From NCBI GenBank assembly GCA_029561305.1, contig JAKQJG010000005.1, positions 1 to 33,939 on the forward strand: a DNA stretch of 33,939 nucleotides, read 5' to 3'. Shown piece after piece: positions 26,940-33,939 of this stretch (position 1 is its first letter; each line of letters opens with the position of its first letter). The stretch is from Bacteroidota bacterium. GTDB lineage: Bacteria > Bacteroidota > Bacteroidia > Chitinophagales > Chitinophagaceae. A program made the position numbers and the translations under genes. The notes under the pieces were generated by a model, which saw nothing but the letters and a program-made list of their open reading frames with translations, did no database searches and had not been told where the DNA came from.

Positions 26940-27482
26940 TTAGTTGTTAACCTGAACTACACTTATCCCCGAAAAGTGAATTTCCCCTGCATTTGAAGAA
27001 AAAGTTCCGTCTGCAAGTTTAACGGGGGCAAATTTCAATACAGCAAAAAGGGGAGTTGCTGACCCACCTGTTGACTGTAAATTTTTCACTTGCTGGGTAA
27101 TATCGATCTCAACCTGCTGTTTTGCGCCGGGGGCAGTAATCGAATAAAGATCAAGCAGGGAAACAAAACTTTGTTGTGAAGATGTCAGCTTATCAATGTC
27201 ATTTAGTAAATTGGTAAGGTAGATCTCGTACACTCCTTCGGGTGCGCTAATCACTGTAGGGTGATCAAGAACCAGCAGCAATCTGCCTTTTTTTGTAACC
27301 TCCAGCTTTTTCTCTTCCGGTAAATGCAATATTGTTTGTGTAACGTTAATACCTGCTACGAGTGCTGTATCTTTTTTATACAACAATACTGTGTCTGTTG
27401 CATTTGTAATTGTTGTGCTGTTATTGCCGGTTGAACAACCGGTCAACATGACCATCCACAATGTTATTGCAATCAATTGCAT
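26940..27482 (-). CDS. lipoprotein related to the tyrosinase C-terminal domain
   Basis: This is a 180-residue predicted lipoprotein: the lipobox LTGC has C16, followed by a Ser/Thr/Asn linker (about 17-45). The folded part (about 60-180) aligns by eye with residues 378-493 of the tyrosinase encoded just upstream. RLLLVLD (67-73) matches RLIMTFE, PEGVYEIYL (81-89) matches PEGVVEVYI, FVSLLDLYS (106-114) matches FVGLLDLFS, and VEIDITQQV matches VELDATKVA. In the tyrosinase this is the C-terminal domain that follows the copper domain and resembles the plant polyphenol-oxidase C-terminal (KFDV) domain. There is no copper-site histidine cluster, so it is not an enzyme by itself. The ATG is 4 bp after the tyrosinase stop, indicating one operon. 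Proposed role (inference): a membrane-tethered partner, cap or copper chaperone for the tyrosinase. Confidence 0.75.
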   Translation of the reverse strand: MQLIAITLWMVMLTGCSTGNNSTTITNATDTVLLYKKDTALVAGINVTQTILHLPEEKKLEVTKKGRLLLVLDHPTVISAPEGVYEIYLTNLLNDIDKLTSSQQSFVSLLDLYSITAPGAKQQVEIDITQQVKNLQSTGGSATPLFAVLKFAPVKLADGTFSSNAGEIHFSGISVVQVNN

Positions 27483-27486
27483 GGTA

Positions 27487-28983
27487 TCAATTTCCGGAAC
27501 GCTCTAAAGAAAATTTAATACGCCTGATAGAGAATTCAGCATCGGTACCTACTTCAATCCTGTTAAGCGTGGCACCCCTTACATAAAATGAAACTGAAGC
27601 ATTCCGTAGACTATTGAGATTAAGTCCCAGAGCCTCAGCCACCTTTGTTGCATCCAGTTCCACTTCATCAGCCGGGTTGTCGGTAAAATGGTGGTTGGTA
27701 TGGTGTTCGGCTGAAAATAGATCGAGTAAACCAACAAAATGTATACTTCTGAAATCAGGCGTTTGGCCATCAGGCTGGTTAATATATACTTCTACAACAC
27801 CTTCGGGCATCTGGCGAACAGCAAGACCTTCAAAAGTCATGATCAGTCTTTCGGAGGTACTGGCATCGGAGAAATTAAAGGCTTCCCGGTTATTTCTCCT
27901 TATAAAAGAATCAATTTGAGTTGAACTTTCCCGTGCGAAGTCTGCTTTTTGTCTTTTACCGTTAAGTTGCACTGCACTTTCTCTTGTTATTAATATATCT
28001 CTTCTCACAACAGCGGGTCTTGCCGGAGGACAGCCTGGAAAAGAGGGAAGATCATCATACCGATAGTTTAATTGGGCAGAAATTTCAACAACCTGGCTCC
28101 CGGTAAGCGATACCTGGTTGCCAAATTCATCAAAAAATACATAGCTTTTATTGAGCCAGGTGGCATCAACCGGGTTTGCCCTGCCATTACACATGGCTCT
28201 CCAAACTTCCCACAAGCGGTCAATTTCGGAATGGTGCAGCCAGAAAACGGGATCAACGGCTGCTGTGTTCACTATTGCCATTGCACCATTTACACTGGTA
28301 TGTACAGAACCATGCGGGCCGCTGTTCAAATTACTTTGAAAAGTATAATAAGGTACAATTGCCATAGAGTTATTAAATGCAGTTATTATACTGGCGGGTA
28401 AAGCACCACCCCCATTAATGGCTGCATTTCTTGTCATATATAAGGGGTTGCCAGGACTGTTCTCCCTGTAAGCTGCAGGTAAAACAGGATCTGTCAAATA
28501 ATCCCAATAAGGAAGGGTTAGATCAGCCCTGCCTGACTTATGTCTTAATATGCGCTCAAAAAAATAAAGGTACATGCGGTGCCATGCCAGGAAAAAAACA
28601 CCTTCGCCAGCACGGTGGCAGGTATTCCATGACTGTAAATTATCGGGTAGATTGGTGCCATGAATAGCAGTTTGATACCCAAAACTGGTTGGATTCGTAT
28701 AAGGCAAAGCTTTCATTTTTAATAAACCCACCTTTATAGCATTGATCTCAGCCTGTGTAAGTGCATTTACATTTTTGCGGGTCTTCATGGGCTCCAGGCC
28801 GAACCTGCGCTGAAATTCCTCATTCGAAATGGGCGGGGGGCTATAGAAAGCATTCGACTGGCACTCGATTATATCGGTTATGGGCCTTACAGAAGTGGCG
28901 GGTTTGTCTTTATTATCAGAGGTTCCCACAAAAATAATACTGCCACAAAGCAGCGTCACAAACAGGAAAACATAACTTTTCAT
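27487..28983 (-). CDS. secreted tyrosinase / polyphenol oxidase
   Basis: This is a 498-residue type 3 copper enzyme that oxidises phenols to quinones. An export signal lies at 1-21 (MKSYVFLFVTLLCGSIIFVG), and the start at 28983 was chosen for this; the frame stays open to 29043. CuA ligands are H108 (AIHGTN), H123 (TCHRAGEG) and H135 (FLAWHRMYLYFFE). CuB ligands are H224 and H228 (GPHGSVHTS) and H251 within DPVFWLHHSEIDRLW. C122, next to H123, may form the Cys-His thioether known in other tyrosinases. YRYDD (307-311) matches the tyrosine motif that closes the core in plant enzymes. Residues 378-493 form a C-terminal domain of plant PPO type, with a His cluster EHHTNHH (426-432). It is first gene of a two-gene unit. 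An unclear point is whether the C-terminal domain keeps the enzyme latent. Confidence 0.93.
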   Translation of the reverse strand: MKSYVFLFVTLLCGSIIFVGTSDNKDKPATSVRPITDIIECQSNAFYSPPPISNEEFQRRFGLEPMKTRKNVNALTQAEINAIKVGLLKMKALPYTNPTSFGYQTAIHGTNLPDNLQSWNTCHRAGEGVFFLAWHRMYLYFFERILRHKSGRADLTLPYWDYLTDPVLPAAYRENSPGNPLYMTRNAAINGGGALPASIITAFNNSMAIVPYYTFQSNLNSGPHGSVHTSVNGAMAIVNTAAVDPVFWLHHSEIDRLWEVWRAMCNGRANPVDATWLNKSYVFFDEFGNQVSLTGSQVVEISAQLNYRYDDLPSFPGCPPARPAVVRRDILITRESAVQLNGKRQKADFARESSTQIDSFIRRNNREAFNFSDASTSERLIMTFEGLAVRQMPEGVVEVYINQPDGQTPDFRSIHFVGLLDLFSAEHHTNHHFTDNPADEVELDATKVAEALGLNLNSLRNASVSFYVRGATLNRIEVGTDAEFSIRRIKFSLERSGN

Positions 28984-29511: not shown

Positions 29512-32500
29512 ATGATGAGCGGAACAGGATTTTTTAGAAGCATGAAAAAGCGCTTTGCAGTGCGTAAAAATATTTTCACATTAGTTGTATTGTTTTTTAC
29601 AGGGTTGCTTTTTTGCGGAAAGGTAAATGGACAAGCAACTTGTTTTGGTGTGATTGACGGCAGCACAACAGAATTTTGTGTGGTGTCTGGGTCTATTACT
29701 TTTTCCAATGCAGTAGCTGCTGGTGAAAATGTGCAATGGCTTACTTCCGGCGATGGCGTGTTCAATGATCCTTATGCCCAAAACCCGACGTACACACCCG
29801 GGCCTGTTGACATTGCAAATGGGTATGCTTTTATTTACCTGGATGTTTACAAAGACGACCCGGTAGATTTTTGCTCGGTTCTTCCTTTGGTGACATTGCA
29901 TATTGGTTCCATGAATGCAACAGCAACACCTGCCACCCAAACTATTTGTTCAGGTTCAGCTCTTACTAATATAGTTTTCTCCGGAGGATTAAGTTCCACC
30001 ACCTACAACTGGACAAGAGATAATACTGCCACCATTACCGGAACTGCAGGTACCAGTGGAACAGGTACTATCAGGGGCAACCTGGCTAATGCGACAGCGG
30101 ACCCGGTAAGTGTACGGTTTACCATAACGCCCACTACAGGCAGTTGCACAGGAACACCCATCAATGCGGTGGTGAACGTTAATCCAAGGGTGATTGCTTC
30201 AGCCAGTATTACTTCTCAAACAACCTGCTCTGGCTCTGCTATTACACCAATCGCAGTCAGCAGTTCTGCCAATAACACCACCTACACCTGGACAAGAAAT
30301 AATACAGGTTCAGTTACCGGTATTGCTTCCAGCGGAACTTCTGCAAATATTACCGGCACGTTAACCAATACCAGCGGTTCACCGGTTACTGTAACGTTTA
30401 CCATTACCCCAACAGCAAATGGCTGTGCAGGTACTGCAATTACCTCTACTGTTACTGTAAATCCGAATTCAAATGTAGTAACCAGCACGCCGGCATTGCA
30501 GTCAGTATGTTCCGGATCACCCATTAGTAATATTACTTTCAGCGGCGCTGGTGGCGGGGCCACTTATAACTGGACAAGAAATAATACAGCCGGGGTAACG
30601 GGCATTGCCAGCAGCGGTTCCGGAACCATCAGTGGCACATTGACCAATACCACCACTGCACCGGTTTATGTAACGTTTACCATTACCCCAACTACCAATA
30701 GTTGTTCCAACAGGGCATCCGTGCTGGTAAGTCCAAGGCCTGCAGCAACGGCAACACCAGCTTCTCAAACGATCTGTTCTGGTACAGCCATCTCACCTGT
30801 ATTGTTAACAAGCAATATCAGCAATACTACCTATGCCTGGACAAGAAATAATACCGCTTCAGTTACAGGCATTGCCAACAGCGGCACAGGTAACATAGCA
30901 GGTTCACTAACGAATACAACCAACTCACCTGTAACGGTTACATTTACTATCACACCTTCTGTTAATGGATGTACAGGCACGGCTATTACTGCTACAGTAA
31001 CTGTTACGCCTGCCCCGAATACAGCAACTGCAACCCCATCCAATCAGACTATTTGTTCCGGCGGTAATGTGAGCTCTATTACTATGAGTGGCAGTGGCGG
31101 TGGATCGGTGTATAACTGGAGCAGGGATAATATCGCACTTGCAACGGGCATAGGTTATTCAGGTACAGGTACAATCAATGGCCAGTTGATCAATACAACC
31201 GGAACCGCACTTACTGTAAGATTTACTATTACACCTACAAGAAATGGATGTGTGGGTACACCTGTTATTGCCAATGTTGTTGTGAATGCTGCTTCCAATT
31301 CAGCTTCCGCCACCCCCCTGGATCAAACGGTTTGTTCAGGTACGCCGGTAAGCCAAATTGTACTAAGCGGCGCCACATCTTATACCTGGACAAGGAATAA
31401 TACAGCAACAGTAACAGGCATTGCAGCCAGTGGTACAGGAAATATTTCGGGTACACTTGTAAATACTACAGGTGCCCCGGTTAATGTAACGTTCACGGTT
31501 ATCCCAACCATTGGTGGCTGTACAGGTCTTCCTGTTATAGCCTCTGTGCTGGTAAACCCAAGGCCAACAGCGGTTATTACAGGCAGCCAGGCCGTATGTA
31601 CAGGCGGTGCATCACCAAATCTTTCTATAGCATTTACAGGTGTGGCACCCTGGTCATTTACTTATACAGATGGATCAACACCGGTCTCGCTTTCTGGTAG
31701 TTATGCCAACTCTTATACATTCCCGGTTCCCGCATTACCTGCCGTATACACAGTGACTACAGTTAGCGATGCCAACTGTGTGGCACAAGCAGGCGATATC
31801 ACAGGCAGTGCAAACATTACACAGCAAACATATACTTTCAATGCAAGTGCCGGCTTAAATGGTAATATTAGTCCTGCAGGGGCCATTGCCATTAACTGTG
31901 GTACAAACCAGACCTATACGATTACTCCAAATAGTGGCTTTAGCGTGGCAGACGTACTTGTAAACGGGATATCAGTGGGAGCAGTAACAAGCTATACGTT
32001 TATAAACGTTTCAGCGCCGCATACAATCAGTGCAGTATTCAGTGCCAACGCACATACGATCACTGCAAGTGCTGGTGCCAACGGATCTATTTCGCCATCG
32101 GGTGCGGTAGCAATTTCTAATGGTGCCAGTCAAGCATTTACTATTGCAGCGGCTCCATGTTATCAAATATCAAATGTATTAGTGGACGGTGTTTCTATCG
32201 GCGCTGTATCAGGTTACACTTTCAATAATGTTACAGCTCCGCATACTATCAGCGCTTCGTTTACACAAACCAGTTATAACATCATTGCCATTGCCGGAGC
32301 CAATGGAAATATTACGCCTGCTGGTACAACCAATGTAAATTGTGGTGGCAGTCAAACTTATACGATCACAGCAAACAGTTGCTATCAAATTGCTGACGTG
32401 TTAGTAAACGGTGTTTCTGTAGGCGCGGTTTCTTCTTACACATTTAATAATGTAACGGCTGCAAATACTATCAGCGCTTCGTTTACTCAAAGCAGTTATG

Positions 32501-33939
32501 TCATTAACGCCAGTGCCGGAGACAATGGAAATATCACTCCTGCCGGCGCAACCAATGTTAATTGCGGTGGCAGTCAAACTTATACGATCACACCCAACAG
32601 TTGCTATCAAATTGCCGACGTATTAGTAAACGGTGTTTCTGTAGGTGCGGTTTCTTCATATACATTTAATAACGTAACGGCTGCAAATACTATTAGTGTG
32701 TTGTTCTCACCCATTACTTATGCAGTTACTGCTTCATCAGGTGAAAACGGAAGCATTAGTCCTTCCGGTGTAACCGATGTCAGTTGCGGCGGAAGTCAAA
32801 CCTATATCATCACGCCTAACAGTTGTTATCAGATTGCCGATGTTTTGGTAAACGGTGTTTCAGTTGGTGCTTTGTCGTCCTATACATTTCATAACATTCA
32901 AGGATTACAATCTATTAGTGTTTCGTTTTTACAAACAACATATAATATTACGGCGTCGTCCGGTGCAAATGGTATGATCAATCCGTTGGGAAATACCAAC
33001 ATTACTTGCGGCAGTAACCAGTCTTATGCTATTGTTGCCGATCCAGGTTATAATATCCAGGATGTGGTAGTTGATGGAGTATCGCAGGGAGCTATCACTA
33101 ATTATTCTTTTGATAATGTTATATCAGATCATAGCATCAGTGCAGTATTCAGTACCGGGTCCTTTACCATCACTGCCAGTGCCGGAGAACACGGAAACAT
33201 TACACCTTCAGGAGCCGTTGGGGTTTCTACCGGATCCAGTCAGTCCTTTGACATTACTGCCAATAGTTGTTATCAAATAGCAGATGTACTGGTGGATGGA
33301 ATTTCAGTTGGTGCAGTTTCTTCTTACACATTTAATAATGTTACAACCCCTCATACCATTGCTGCAAGTTTCTCACAGGTAGTATACGAAATTTCAGCCT
33401 CTGCATCAGGAGAAGGCAGTATTTCACCTGAAGCACTTACTAGTATTGCTTGTGGTGGTACACAGGTATATACTATTACACCCGAACCCTGTTATCAAAT
33501 AGAGGAAGTATTTGTTGATGGCATTTCCGTGGGTGCAGTATCTACTTTTACTTTTGAGAACATAACGGAAGCGCATACAATCAATGCCAGTTTTGTAAGA
33601 TCTGATTACGCTATCACTGCTACAGCAGCCACAGGTGGATCTATCAGTCCTGAGGGCCTTACAAACATTGATTGTGGTGATGAATTGGATTATTCCGTTT
33701 CGCCGGATGAAGGCTTCGTAATCCTGGATGTGCTGGTGGATGGGGTATCTGTTGGCGCTGTCACTTCCTACAACTTCGAAGATGTTTCAGCCAGCCATAC
33801 TATACATGCAGTATTTGCCCCGGTAGACGCTTTCGTCATCAATGCCACTGCTACCCCCAACGGAACCATCACACCTTCAGGGGCTGTTAGTGTTTTATCG
33901 GGAGGCAGCCAGACTTTCACTATCGCAGCCAACATTTGT
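29512..33939 (+). CDS. giant surface repeat protein, 3' end outside window
   Basis: The frame is open for 1476 codons from 29512 to the last base of the window; I translated it through without a stop. The start may be the ATG at 29512 or 29542 (MKKRFAVRKN). Either gives a signal peptide with hydrophobic core IFTLVVLFFTGLLFCG. After a short entry domain (about 42-135), seven PKD/Ig-like units follow. Six of them have QTICSG at the start, YxWTRNN in the middle and FTITPT..GCTGT at the end (about 136-690). From codon 774 (31831) there are nine complete InlB/Flg_new-type repeats of 74-75 residues and a tenth cut by the window edge. No enzyme domain is visible. A T9SS sorting domain would be expected beyond the window. 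Such stalk-like proteins act in adhesion or gliding; that role is inference. Confidence 0.9.
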   Translation, partial: MMSGTGFFRSMKKRFAVRKNIFTLVVLFFTGLLFCGKVNGQATCFGVIDGSTTEFCVVSGSITFSNAVAAGENVQWLTSGDGVFNDPYAQNPTYTPGPVDIANGYAFIYLDVYKDDPVDFCSVLPLVTLHIGSMNATATPATQTICSGSALTNIVFSGGLSSTTYNWTRDNTATITGTAGTSGTGTIRGNLANATADPVSVRFTITPTTGSCTGTPINAVVNVNPRVIASASITSQTTCSGSAITPIAVSSSANNTTYTWTRNNTGSVTGIASSGTSANITGTLTNTSGSPVTVTFTITPTANGCAGTAITSTVTVNPNSNVVTSTPALQSVCSGSPISNITFSGAGGGATYNWTRNNTAGVTGIASSGSGTISGTLTNTTTAPVYVTFTITPTTNSCSNRASVLVSPRPAATATPASQTICSGTAISPVLLTSNISNTTYAWTRNNTASVTGIANSGTGNIAGSLTNTTNSPVTVTFTITPSVNGCTGTAITATVTVTPAPNTATATPSNQTICSGGNVSSITMSGSGGGSVYNWSRDNIALATGIGYSGTGTINGQLINTTGTALTVRFTITPTRNGCVGTPVIANVVVNAASNSASATPLDQTVCSGTPVSQIVLSGATSYTWTRNNTATVTGIAASGTGNISGTLVNTTGAPVNVTFTVIPTIGGCTGLPVIASVLVNPRPTAVITGSQAVCTGGASPNLSIAFTGVAPWSFTYTDGSTPVSLSGSYANSYTFPVPALPAVYTVTTVSDANCVAQAGDITGSANITQQTYTFNASAGLNGNISPAGAIAINCGTNQTYTITPNSGFSVADVLVNGISVGAVTSYTFINVSAPHTISAVFSANAHTITASAGANGSISPSGAVAISNGASQAFTIAAAPCYQISNVLVDGVSIGAVSGYTFNNVTAPHTISASFTQTSYNIIAIAGANGNITPAGTTNVNCGGSQTYTITANSCYQIADVLVNGVSVGAVSSYTFNNVTAANTISASFTQSSYVINASAGDNGNITPAGATNVNCGGSQTYTITPNSCYQIADVLVNGVSVGAVSSYTFNNVTAANTISVLFSPITYAVTASSGENGSISPSGVTDVSCGGSQTYIITPNSCYQIADVLVNGVSVGALSSYTFHNIQGLQSISVSFLQTTYNITASSGANGMINPLGNTNITCGSNQSYAIVADPGYNIQDVVVDGVSQGAITNYSFDNVISDHSISAVFSTGSFTITASAGEHGNITPSGAVGVSTGSSQSFDITANSCYQIADVLVDGISVGAVSSYTFNNVTTPHTIAASFSQVVYEISASASGEGSISPEALTSIACGGTQVYTITPEPCYQIEEVFVDGISVGAVSTFTFENITEAHTINASFVRSDYAITATAATGGSISPEGLTNIDCGDELDYSVSPDEGFVILDVLVDGVSVGAVTSYNFEDVSASHTIHAVFAPVDAFVINATATPNGTITPSGAVSVLSGGSQTFTIAANIC
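29947..31599 (+). repeat. PKD/Ig-like tandem repeats (seven units, about 264-282 bp)
   Basis: The marker codon TGT/TGC of the QTxCSG motif recurs at 29947, 30226, 30508, 30775, 31054, 31333 and 31597. Spacings are 279, 282, 267, 279, 279 and 264 bp. Units share xxQTxCSG, YNWTRNNT, GIASSGTG, LxNTTxxPVxVxFTITPT and GCTGT. The seventh unit (from 31597) has diverged: it begins AVCTGGASPNLSI and lacks the WTR motif. Two cysteines per unit (in CSG and GCTG) could form one disulfide. Confidence 0.8.
31831..33939 (+). repeat. InlB-type tandem repeats, exact 222-bp period
   Basis: Units start at 31831, 32053, 32275, 32497, 32719, 32941, 33163, 33385 and 33607: eight successive steps of exactly 222 bp (74 codons). 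The ninth unit has one extra codon, and a tenth starts at 33832 and is cut by the window edge. The consensus runs YxITASAGxNGxITPxG, then CGGSQTYTITxNSCYQIADV, LVNGVSVGAVSSYTFNNV and TAxHTISAxF. This matches the divergent InlB B-repeat/Flg_new family of surface stalks. Confidence 0.9.

Follow-up and report, generated by a model that had tools for sequence, protein, structure and literature searches.

A Bacteroidota tyrosinase is encoded beside a putative detached copy of its own C-terminal lid domain

By sequence comparison, the small protein (P0001) encoded immediately downstream of a tyrosinase in a Chitinophagaceae contig (JAKQJG010000005.1; hereafter the window, meaning the whole analyzed stretch of 33,939 nucleotides) carries the same domain as the plant-type C-terminal lid of its neighboring enzyme. 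We put at about even the chance that it serves as a second, detached lid, caddie-like, for the same dicopper pocket of that tyrosinase. This reading draws on the shared domain, a resemblance in fold, the conserved pairing of the two genes, the repeated origin of such pairs, a Phe/Tyr pattern at the plug position, and a missing His-rich loop. For bacteria, fungi, and plants, two kinds of closure are described, a fused lid or, on a lidless enzyme, a separate caddie; here a fused and a separate one occur together and are homologous. Our literature search, largely of openly available papers, returned fused lids and separate caddies, and the accessible text of these papers held no trans-acting lid homolog beside a fused lid.

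Both genes lie on the minus strand, with the small gene downstream of the tyrosinase (Table 1), and the coordinates and 4-bp gap first reported for them were right. The tyrosinase starts with ATG and matches Pfam Tyrosinase (7.4e-32) and PPO1_DWL (4.3e-9), with a match below the cutoff to DUF7868 at residues 335-455. The candidate copper ligands in Table 1 carry the roles that we take them to have across the tyrosinase family. Because the neighbors are a convergent GNAT-domain gene on one side and a divergent gene for a large repeat protein on the other, the pair looks like a stand-alone unit. The repeat protein (29512-33939) is very large and runs off the contig end, and by eye it consists of many repeated units in two different halves. 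In the tyrosinase itself, the usual Cys-His thioether motif, C-x-H in 13 other tyrosinases with a readable motif, is altered, with Cys122 directly abutting His123 (28606-28623, residues 121-126).

Table 1. Features of the tyrosinase and small-protein gene pair in the window
Feature	Position	Strand	Basis
Putative detached-lid gene P0001, 180 aa, hydrophobic N-terminus, lipobox-like LTGC (Cys16)	26940..27482	-	ORF, homology
Tyrosinase gene, 498 aa	27487..28983	-	Pfam Tyrosinase, PPO1_DWL, DUF7868 (below cutoff)
Inter-gene spacer, 4 bp	27483..27486	.	Gene coordinates
Predicted lid domain in small protein (PPO C-terminal type), near residues 65-177	26952..27290	-	hhalign, AlphaFold model, Foldseek
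Cis lid domain of tyrosinase, about residues 377-495	27499..27855	-	Pfam, hhalign
Tyr113 of small protein, placeholder-aligned (LDLY)	27144..27146	-	Alignment, mapping to HcTyr1 Phe397 (PMC11609597, accessible part)
Phe423 of cis lid, placeholder-aligned	27715..27717	-	Alignment
His-rich loop of cis lid, residues 424-440 (SAEHHTNHHFTDNPADE), missing in detached lid	27664..27714	-	Alignment
Dicopper core, candidate ligands H108, H123, H135, H224, H228, H250 or H251	28231..28662	-	Conserved columns, motifs

The original prediction had aligned the small protein with the tyrosinase C-terminal domain by eye, and statistical comparison bears this out. BLASTP joined the two at E = 1e-5 with 20 of 50 positions identical, and none of 5,000 shuffles reached their local alignment score of 71 (shuffle mean 33.0, SD 4.9, maximum 62). 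Profile-profile alignment with hhalign paired residues 65-178 of the small protein with residues 377-494 of the tyrosinase over 111 columns (E = 2.6e-12). We also left the window out, building profiles from other species' sequences only and searching them against the 578 window ORFs. The cis-lid profile then ranked the small gene second (E = 1.2e-8; next, 0.12), and the detached-lid profile ranked the tyrosinase second (E = 1.4e-10; next, 1.4). In the small protein, the domain occupies a separate ORF with its own hydrophobic N-terminus and no covalently attached tyrosinase core.

Family models recognized the detached lids unevenly. The window protein matched neither PPO1_KFDV (PF12143), DUF7868 (PF25271), nor MelC1 (PF06236) at E up to 1, and the five other detached lids of its lineage (lineage 1, below) did not reach the Pfam gathering score of the lid models. 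Elsewhere, the detached lid of genome G369 scored 22.5 bits against PF12143, below the cutoff of 26, and that of G1324 passed the PF25271 cutoff of 25 with 83.3 bits. DUF7868 was absent from the papers that one of our literature searches listed. PDB sequence searches with P0001 or a mixed alignment as the query gave weak, chance-like matches only, and the cis-lid profile by itself found 7xio at E = 0.081.

An AlphaFold model of the small protein from a four-row alignment (mean pLDDT 73, pTM 0.71) has a predicted beta-sandwich lid fold. Its top four Foldseek matches in the PDB were the isolated C-terminal domain of apple MdPPO1 (6elt/6elv) and two Ralstonia TYR chains (7xio); Hahella HcTyr1 (8b74) and aurone synthase ranked lower. 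These lid matches had a Foldseek probability of 1.00 at E values of 1.1e-3 to 1.3e-2, none at 0.001 or better, and the MdPPO1 lid matched at E = 1.1e-3 with a TM-score of 0.42-0.45 by query. Interleaved among them at lower probability were other beta-sandwich proteins, namely plant virus coat proteins and Eph receptor domains. In a low-confidence model of the full-length tyrosinase (mean pLDDT 42), strands and helices follow one another in a similar order in the lid part. The comparison of folds proposed in the original prediction did not refute it. Because two of the four rows in the model's alignment were cis lids, this support is not independent of the sequence evidence. Homology and the Foldseek matches together uphold the earlier claim that a separate plant-type lid stands next to a tyrosinase whose own cis copy is intact.

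In its own genome, P0001 matched only itself; the 195 genomes of the family held one other clear relative (G175) and a weak match in G113. A three-row profile matched 9 of the 396 genomes of the order, strongly in G000, G175, and G350 and weakly in six, and a survey of genome contigs returned one relative, in Pseudarcicella hirudinis. As this is a named strain genome, the pair is hardly a binning artifact. We set the weak first-survey matches aside as not being detached lids: by eye, that in G113 (L004) looks PpiC-like and that in G461 (L009) looks like an unrelated lipoprotein, and those in G255, G368, G490, G241, and G039 were put down to chance without close reading.

The pairing was complete when we counted from the enzyme. 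We defined the tyrosinase subfamily by E below 1e-200 to a three-row enzyme profile, which gave six members (G000, G175, G350, G690, G892 [the P. hirudinis locus], and G953), and in all six the small gene lay immediately downstream, at 2-11 bp in five loci and 115 bp in G350. These pairs span three families (labels f1, f18, and f30). The adjacency, whose conservation had been in question, holds throughout the subfamily as surveyed. Four of the six had first been met through the small protein. The other two, G690 and G953, came from enzyme searches only, and each has the partner; wider enzyme surveys produced no subfamily member lacking the small gene. For tyrosinases at large, we ran lid profiles over every ORF of 60 aa or more in 59 loci (1,106 ORFs). 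The surveys gave 32 tyrosinases (one gene per place), and their scanned flanks, mostly about 1.5 kb on each side and less at contig ends, held a detached lid in nine cases and none in 23. Because 23 of the 32 had none in the scanned flanks, a detached lid is not generally needed. Two scans of viral contigs found no relatives; among plasmids, P0002 matched 15 records, all below 60% identity and none from Bacteroidota, and the G1324 lid had no match.

The nine detached lids fall into three lineages. Lineage 1 holds the six of the tyrosinase subfamily. In lineage 2 (G369 and G1143), the tyrosinase is followed by the small lid protein and then an M4 metallopeptidase, and in lineage 3 (G1324) by a PpoB2-type copper chaperone and then the free lid that passes the DUF7868 cutoff. 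The metallopeptidases of both lineage 2 loci (L061, 3273-4466; L065, 3698-4816) are candidate lid-cutting proteases.

We built the final lid alignment and trees from the nine detached lids and the cis lids of 20 of the 32 tyrosinases. The detached lids of lineage 1 grouped as a single clade (96/97) that shared a branch (89/83) with the six cis lids from the same loci, so this lid copy is old. A recent origin by duplication or gene conversion in each genome was not supported for this lineage, as its detached lids cluster with one another and not with their own cis lids. The G1324 detached lid grouped with the cis lid from its own locus (85/86). Those of G369 and G1143 fell within a set of five (96/96) that also holds their cis lids and the very long-branched C_G336. 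A single origin of all nine detached lids was rejected on the lid domain (p-AU 0.0208), and forcing the nine lid-paired enzymes together was rejected on the enzyme cores (p-AU 0.0131), with at least three changes on that enzyme tree. An earlier, smaller tree (24 rows) had not rejected a single origin (p-AU 0.116 for seven detached lids and 0.329 for six). Because many branches are weakly supported in both trees, the conclusion that detached lids arose more than once appears firmer than a count of exactly three origins. Twelve tyrosinases were left out of the alignment (G1053, G1042, G357, G1123, G1139, G496, G466, G1113, G1087, G1312, G031, and G1305); eleven gave no clear lid-profile match, and G1113 gave a clear one (4.4e-10) and was still not aligned. 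The C-terminal regions of G1053 and G1042 hold a comparable stretch by eye (GTFTILPIL), without the LF or FF seen elsewhere.

Within the aligned lids, one position separates cis from detached copies. The placeholder of HcTyr1 is Phe397 (PMC11609597). In an hmmsearch segment of 2.3 bits, it aligns with the F of the GLF lid motif, where the window enzyme has Phe423; the G1324 cis lid is near-identical to HcTyr1 around this position. In the lid alignment, Phe423 of the window cis lid corresponds to Tyr113 of the small protein, which on the 2.3-bit mapping would be a MelC1-like Tyr at the plug position. The column is Phe in 20 of 20 aligned cis lids, a rule that the 12 tyrosinases outside the alignment could break. 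In the detached lids, it is Tyr in seven of nine (6/6 in lineage 1 and 1/1 in lineage 3), Gly in G369, and Ala in G1143. Since both lineage 2 lids have Gly or Ala here, a ring plug is not universal. Published lids also vary, with Leu469 in HcTyr2 (PMC11609597) and an aliphatic residue at the corresponding position in plants (PMC10526336). The Tyr within lineage 1 is a single inherited change, not six events. Still, it has been kept regardless of divergence, as the window detached lid shares 20-28% identity with three of its lineage and at best 31-32% with any; the lid core is likewise kept, as is, in lineage 1, a P-E/D-G motif.

The loop that follows the placeholder also differs. At least two His occur there in 17 of the 20 cis lids, with one in G416 and G1324 and none, but three Met, in G336. 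By contrast, eight of the nine detached lids have zero or one His, and that of G1324 has two. In the window, the cis loop (SAEHHTNHH) has four His and the trans copy lacks the loop. The His loop beside the placeholder in cis lids is likely a metal-binding site, and most detached lids would thus keep an aromatic plug position without a metal-like loop. Among other cis lids, that of G369 (L027/L065 tyrosinases) has an extreme His-rich loop (HGGHEGHDGHQGHEGHE), and that of G875 (L020 tyrosinase) has a loop rich in His and Met.

The window protein resembles two known kinds of closure without coinciding with either. Its domain is homologous to the C-terminal lids of plant and bacterial polyphenol oxidases (MdPPO1, 6elt/6elv; HcTyr1, 8b74; Ralstonia TYR, 7xio), with a similar fold and the placeholder position in the same motif. 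However, it stands apart as a protein of its own although the neighboring enzyme retains a lid, and it has Tyr in the placeholder column and no His-rich loop. Like Streptomyces MelC1 (PF06236), it is encoded as a separate protein by a neighboring gene, and its Tyr113 aligns with the putative plug column (Tyr98 in MelC1). Unlike MelC1, it has no PF06236 match and no His-rich loop, its partner enzyme already has a cis lid, and its gene comes after the tyrosinase gene, whereas melC1 precedes melC2. In Streptomyces, where a separate caddie replaces the lid, caddie Tyr98 occupies the pocket. The enzyme, once loaded with copper, is believed to convert this Tyr to dopaquinone, whereupon the caddie aggregates and sets the enzyme free (PMC6312201, PMC11608171). 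In Verrucomicrobium, the pocket is blocked by Phe453 of the lid, and an Ala substitution at this residue gives higher activity and less complete copper filling (PMC10526336). For apple pro-PPO, Kampatsikas 2019 (PMC6563526) reports faster self-cleavage once the free C-terminal domain is added; a lid that is not fused is thus able to act in trans. That domain is of the same kind as the window lid and acts in trans in vitro, but it is a laboratory construct rather than a natural gene, and the plant plug position is aliphatic (PMC10526336).

If the small protein is a detached lid, the pair could work as follows. Both proteins would be exported, judging from their hydrophobic N-termini. The built-in lid, with its Phe423 plug and His-rich loop, would cover the pocket and probably aid copper loading. 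Once the cis lid has moved aside or been cleaved off, the detached one would take its seat with Tyr113 in the pocket, a step suggested by homology, fold, and the placeholder alignment. It might then speed opening of the cis lid, or it might keep the copper-loaded enzyme latent until Tyr113 is oxidized or displaced, by analogy with caddie Tyr98; the sequence seems to fit opening of the enzyme as well as shutting. The mechanism of lineage 2, whose plug residue is Gly or Ala, must differ at least in part, and from the gene order we would guess that the neighboring metallopeptidase cuts the cis lid. The original prediction had offered three roles, and of these an inhibitor exchanged with the cis domain appears to suit best, as the placeholder position is kept, as Tyr.

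The same conservation could instead reflect a structural subunit, in which the detached lid forms a stable heteromer with the cis lid or the core and leaves the pocket unplugged. The retained lid core and lineage 1 P-E/D-G motif agree with this, as does lineage 2, which kept the domain though the plug residue was lost; moreover, HcTyr2 requires its own lid for stability (PMC11609597). We nevertheless consider it improbable because it leaves unexplained the placeholder Tyr in all six lineage 1 lids and again in lineage 3.

Export features bear on the earlier suggestion of a membrane tether. We judged signal peptides from hydrophobic N-termini and scored lipoboxes with a PROSITE-like pattern. 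It matched four of the nine detached lids: the window protein (LTGC, Cys16), G175, G369, and G1143. Hence, the description of the small protein as a membrane-anchored lipoprotein agrees with its own sequence but does not extend to detached lids in general. The pattern was unmatched in P. hirudinis, G350, G690, G953, and G1324. The G690 and G350 lids have a Cys after the hydrophobic stretch and could be lipidated despite the mismatch, while those of G953 and G1324 have no Cys in their first 40 residues. No signal peptide is evident in the G1324 enzyme or in its detached lid (the lid start codon is GTG and uncertain). Retention of the tyrosinase at the outer membrane by binding to a lipid-anchored domain accords with the four lipobox matches, but not with these five mismatches, and a tether need not keep a placeholder Tyr. 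We therefore rejected the tether as a shared role and regard it as quite unlikely to be the main one.

Delivery of copper to the tyrosinase, as by MelC1, was the third role suggested. A separate partner gene with Tyr at the plug column recalls MelC1, copper-handling genes adjoin other Bacteroidota tyrosinases, and the G1324 lid loop does have two His. However, the His-rich loop is the very part missing from lineage 1, where this role is disfavored: the difference in loop His between most detached and most cis lids runs against it, and the window enzyme's cis lid already has its four. The G1324 operon has its own chaperone between tyrosinase and detached lid, of the type of Marinomonas PpoB2 (PF09948; PMC2855505), a tyrosinase operon partner that is transmembrane, belongs to another family, and is absent from the window pair. 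We thus hold copper loading by the detached lid to be very unlikely. Little probability also attaches to a glycan- or ligand-binding lipoprotein derived by lid duplication. Carbohydrate-binding modules do appear lower in the Foldseek list, and PMC10526336 makes the same remark on the vsTyr lid, but such a use predicts neither the persistent adjacency to tyrosinases (nine loci, three lineages) nor the placeholder pattern. Pairing that lasts across families and recurs speaks against a relic.

Should the detached-lid reading be true, the sequence would predict a natural protein activator or inhibitor of tyrosinases, and one system could separate the lid features for copper loading, blocking, and opening of the latent enzyme. 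The broadest form of this idea, in which Bacteroidota control type-3 copper enzymes by two lids in an arrangement that probably had three origins, is a speculation that we rate as rather unlikely. In it, the cis lid, with its Phe plug and copper-binding loop, would load and silence the enzyme, and the detached lid would replace it. In the two lineages with a Tyr plug, oxidation of that Tyr by the loaded enzyme itself would make release of the lid a one-time activation switch, and the Streptomyces caddie would have been independently reinvented from the enzyme's own domain.

The surveyed loci also showed recurring neighborhoods of tyrosinases. Flavobacterium-like and related tyrosinases without a detached lid (L021, L022, L023, and L029) share a three-gene row of a multicopper-oxidase-like protein (a Pfam Cu-oxidase_3 match in L022, judged by eye in the remaining loci), a small exported-looking WDCSMCQHG protein, and the tyrosinase. 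The WDCSMCQHG protein has no Pfam match in L022 and is a candidate new copper partner. In L044 and L045 (G1053 and G1042), the tyrosinase is followed by a SCO1/SenC-type copper protein (by Pfam in L045 and by eye in L044), and a DoxX-like protein is present as well by eye. In L031, L056, and L060, it is followed by a membrane protein, which is PpoB2-type in L060 (PF09948) and looks alike by eye in the other two.
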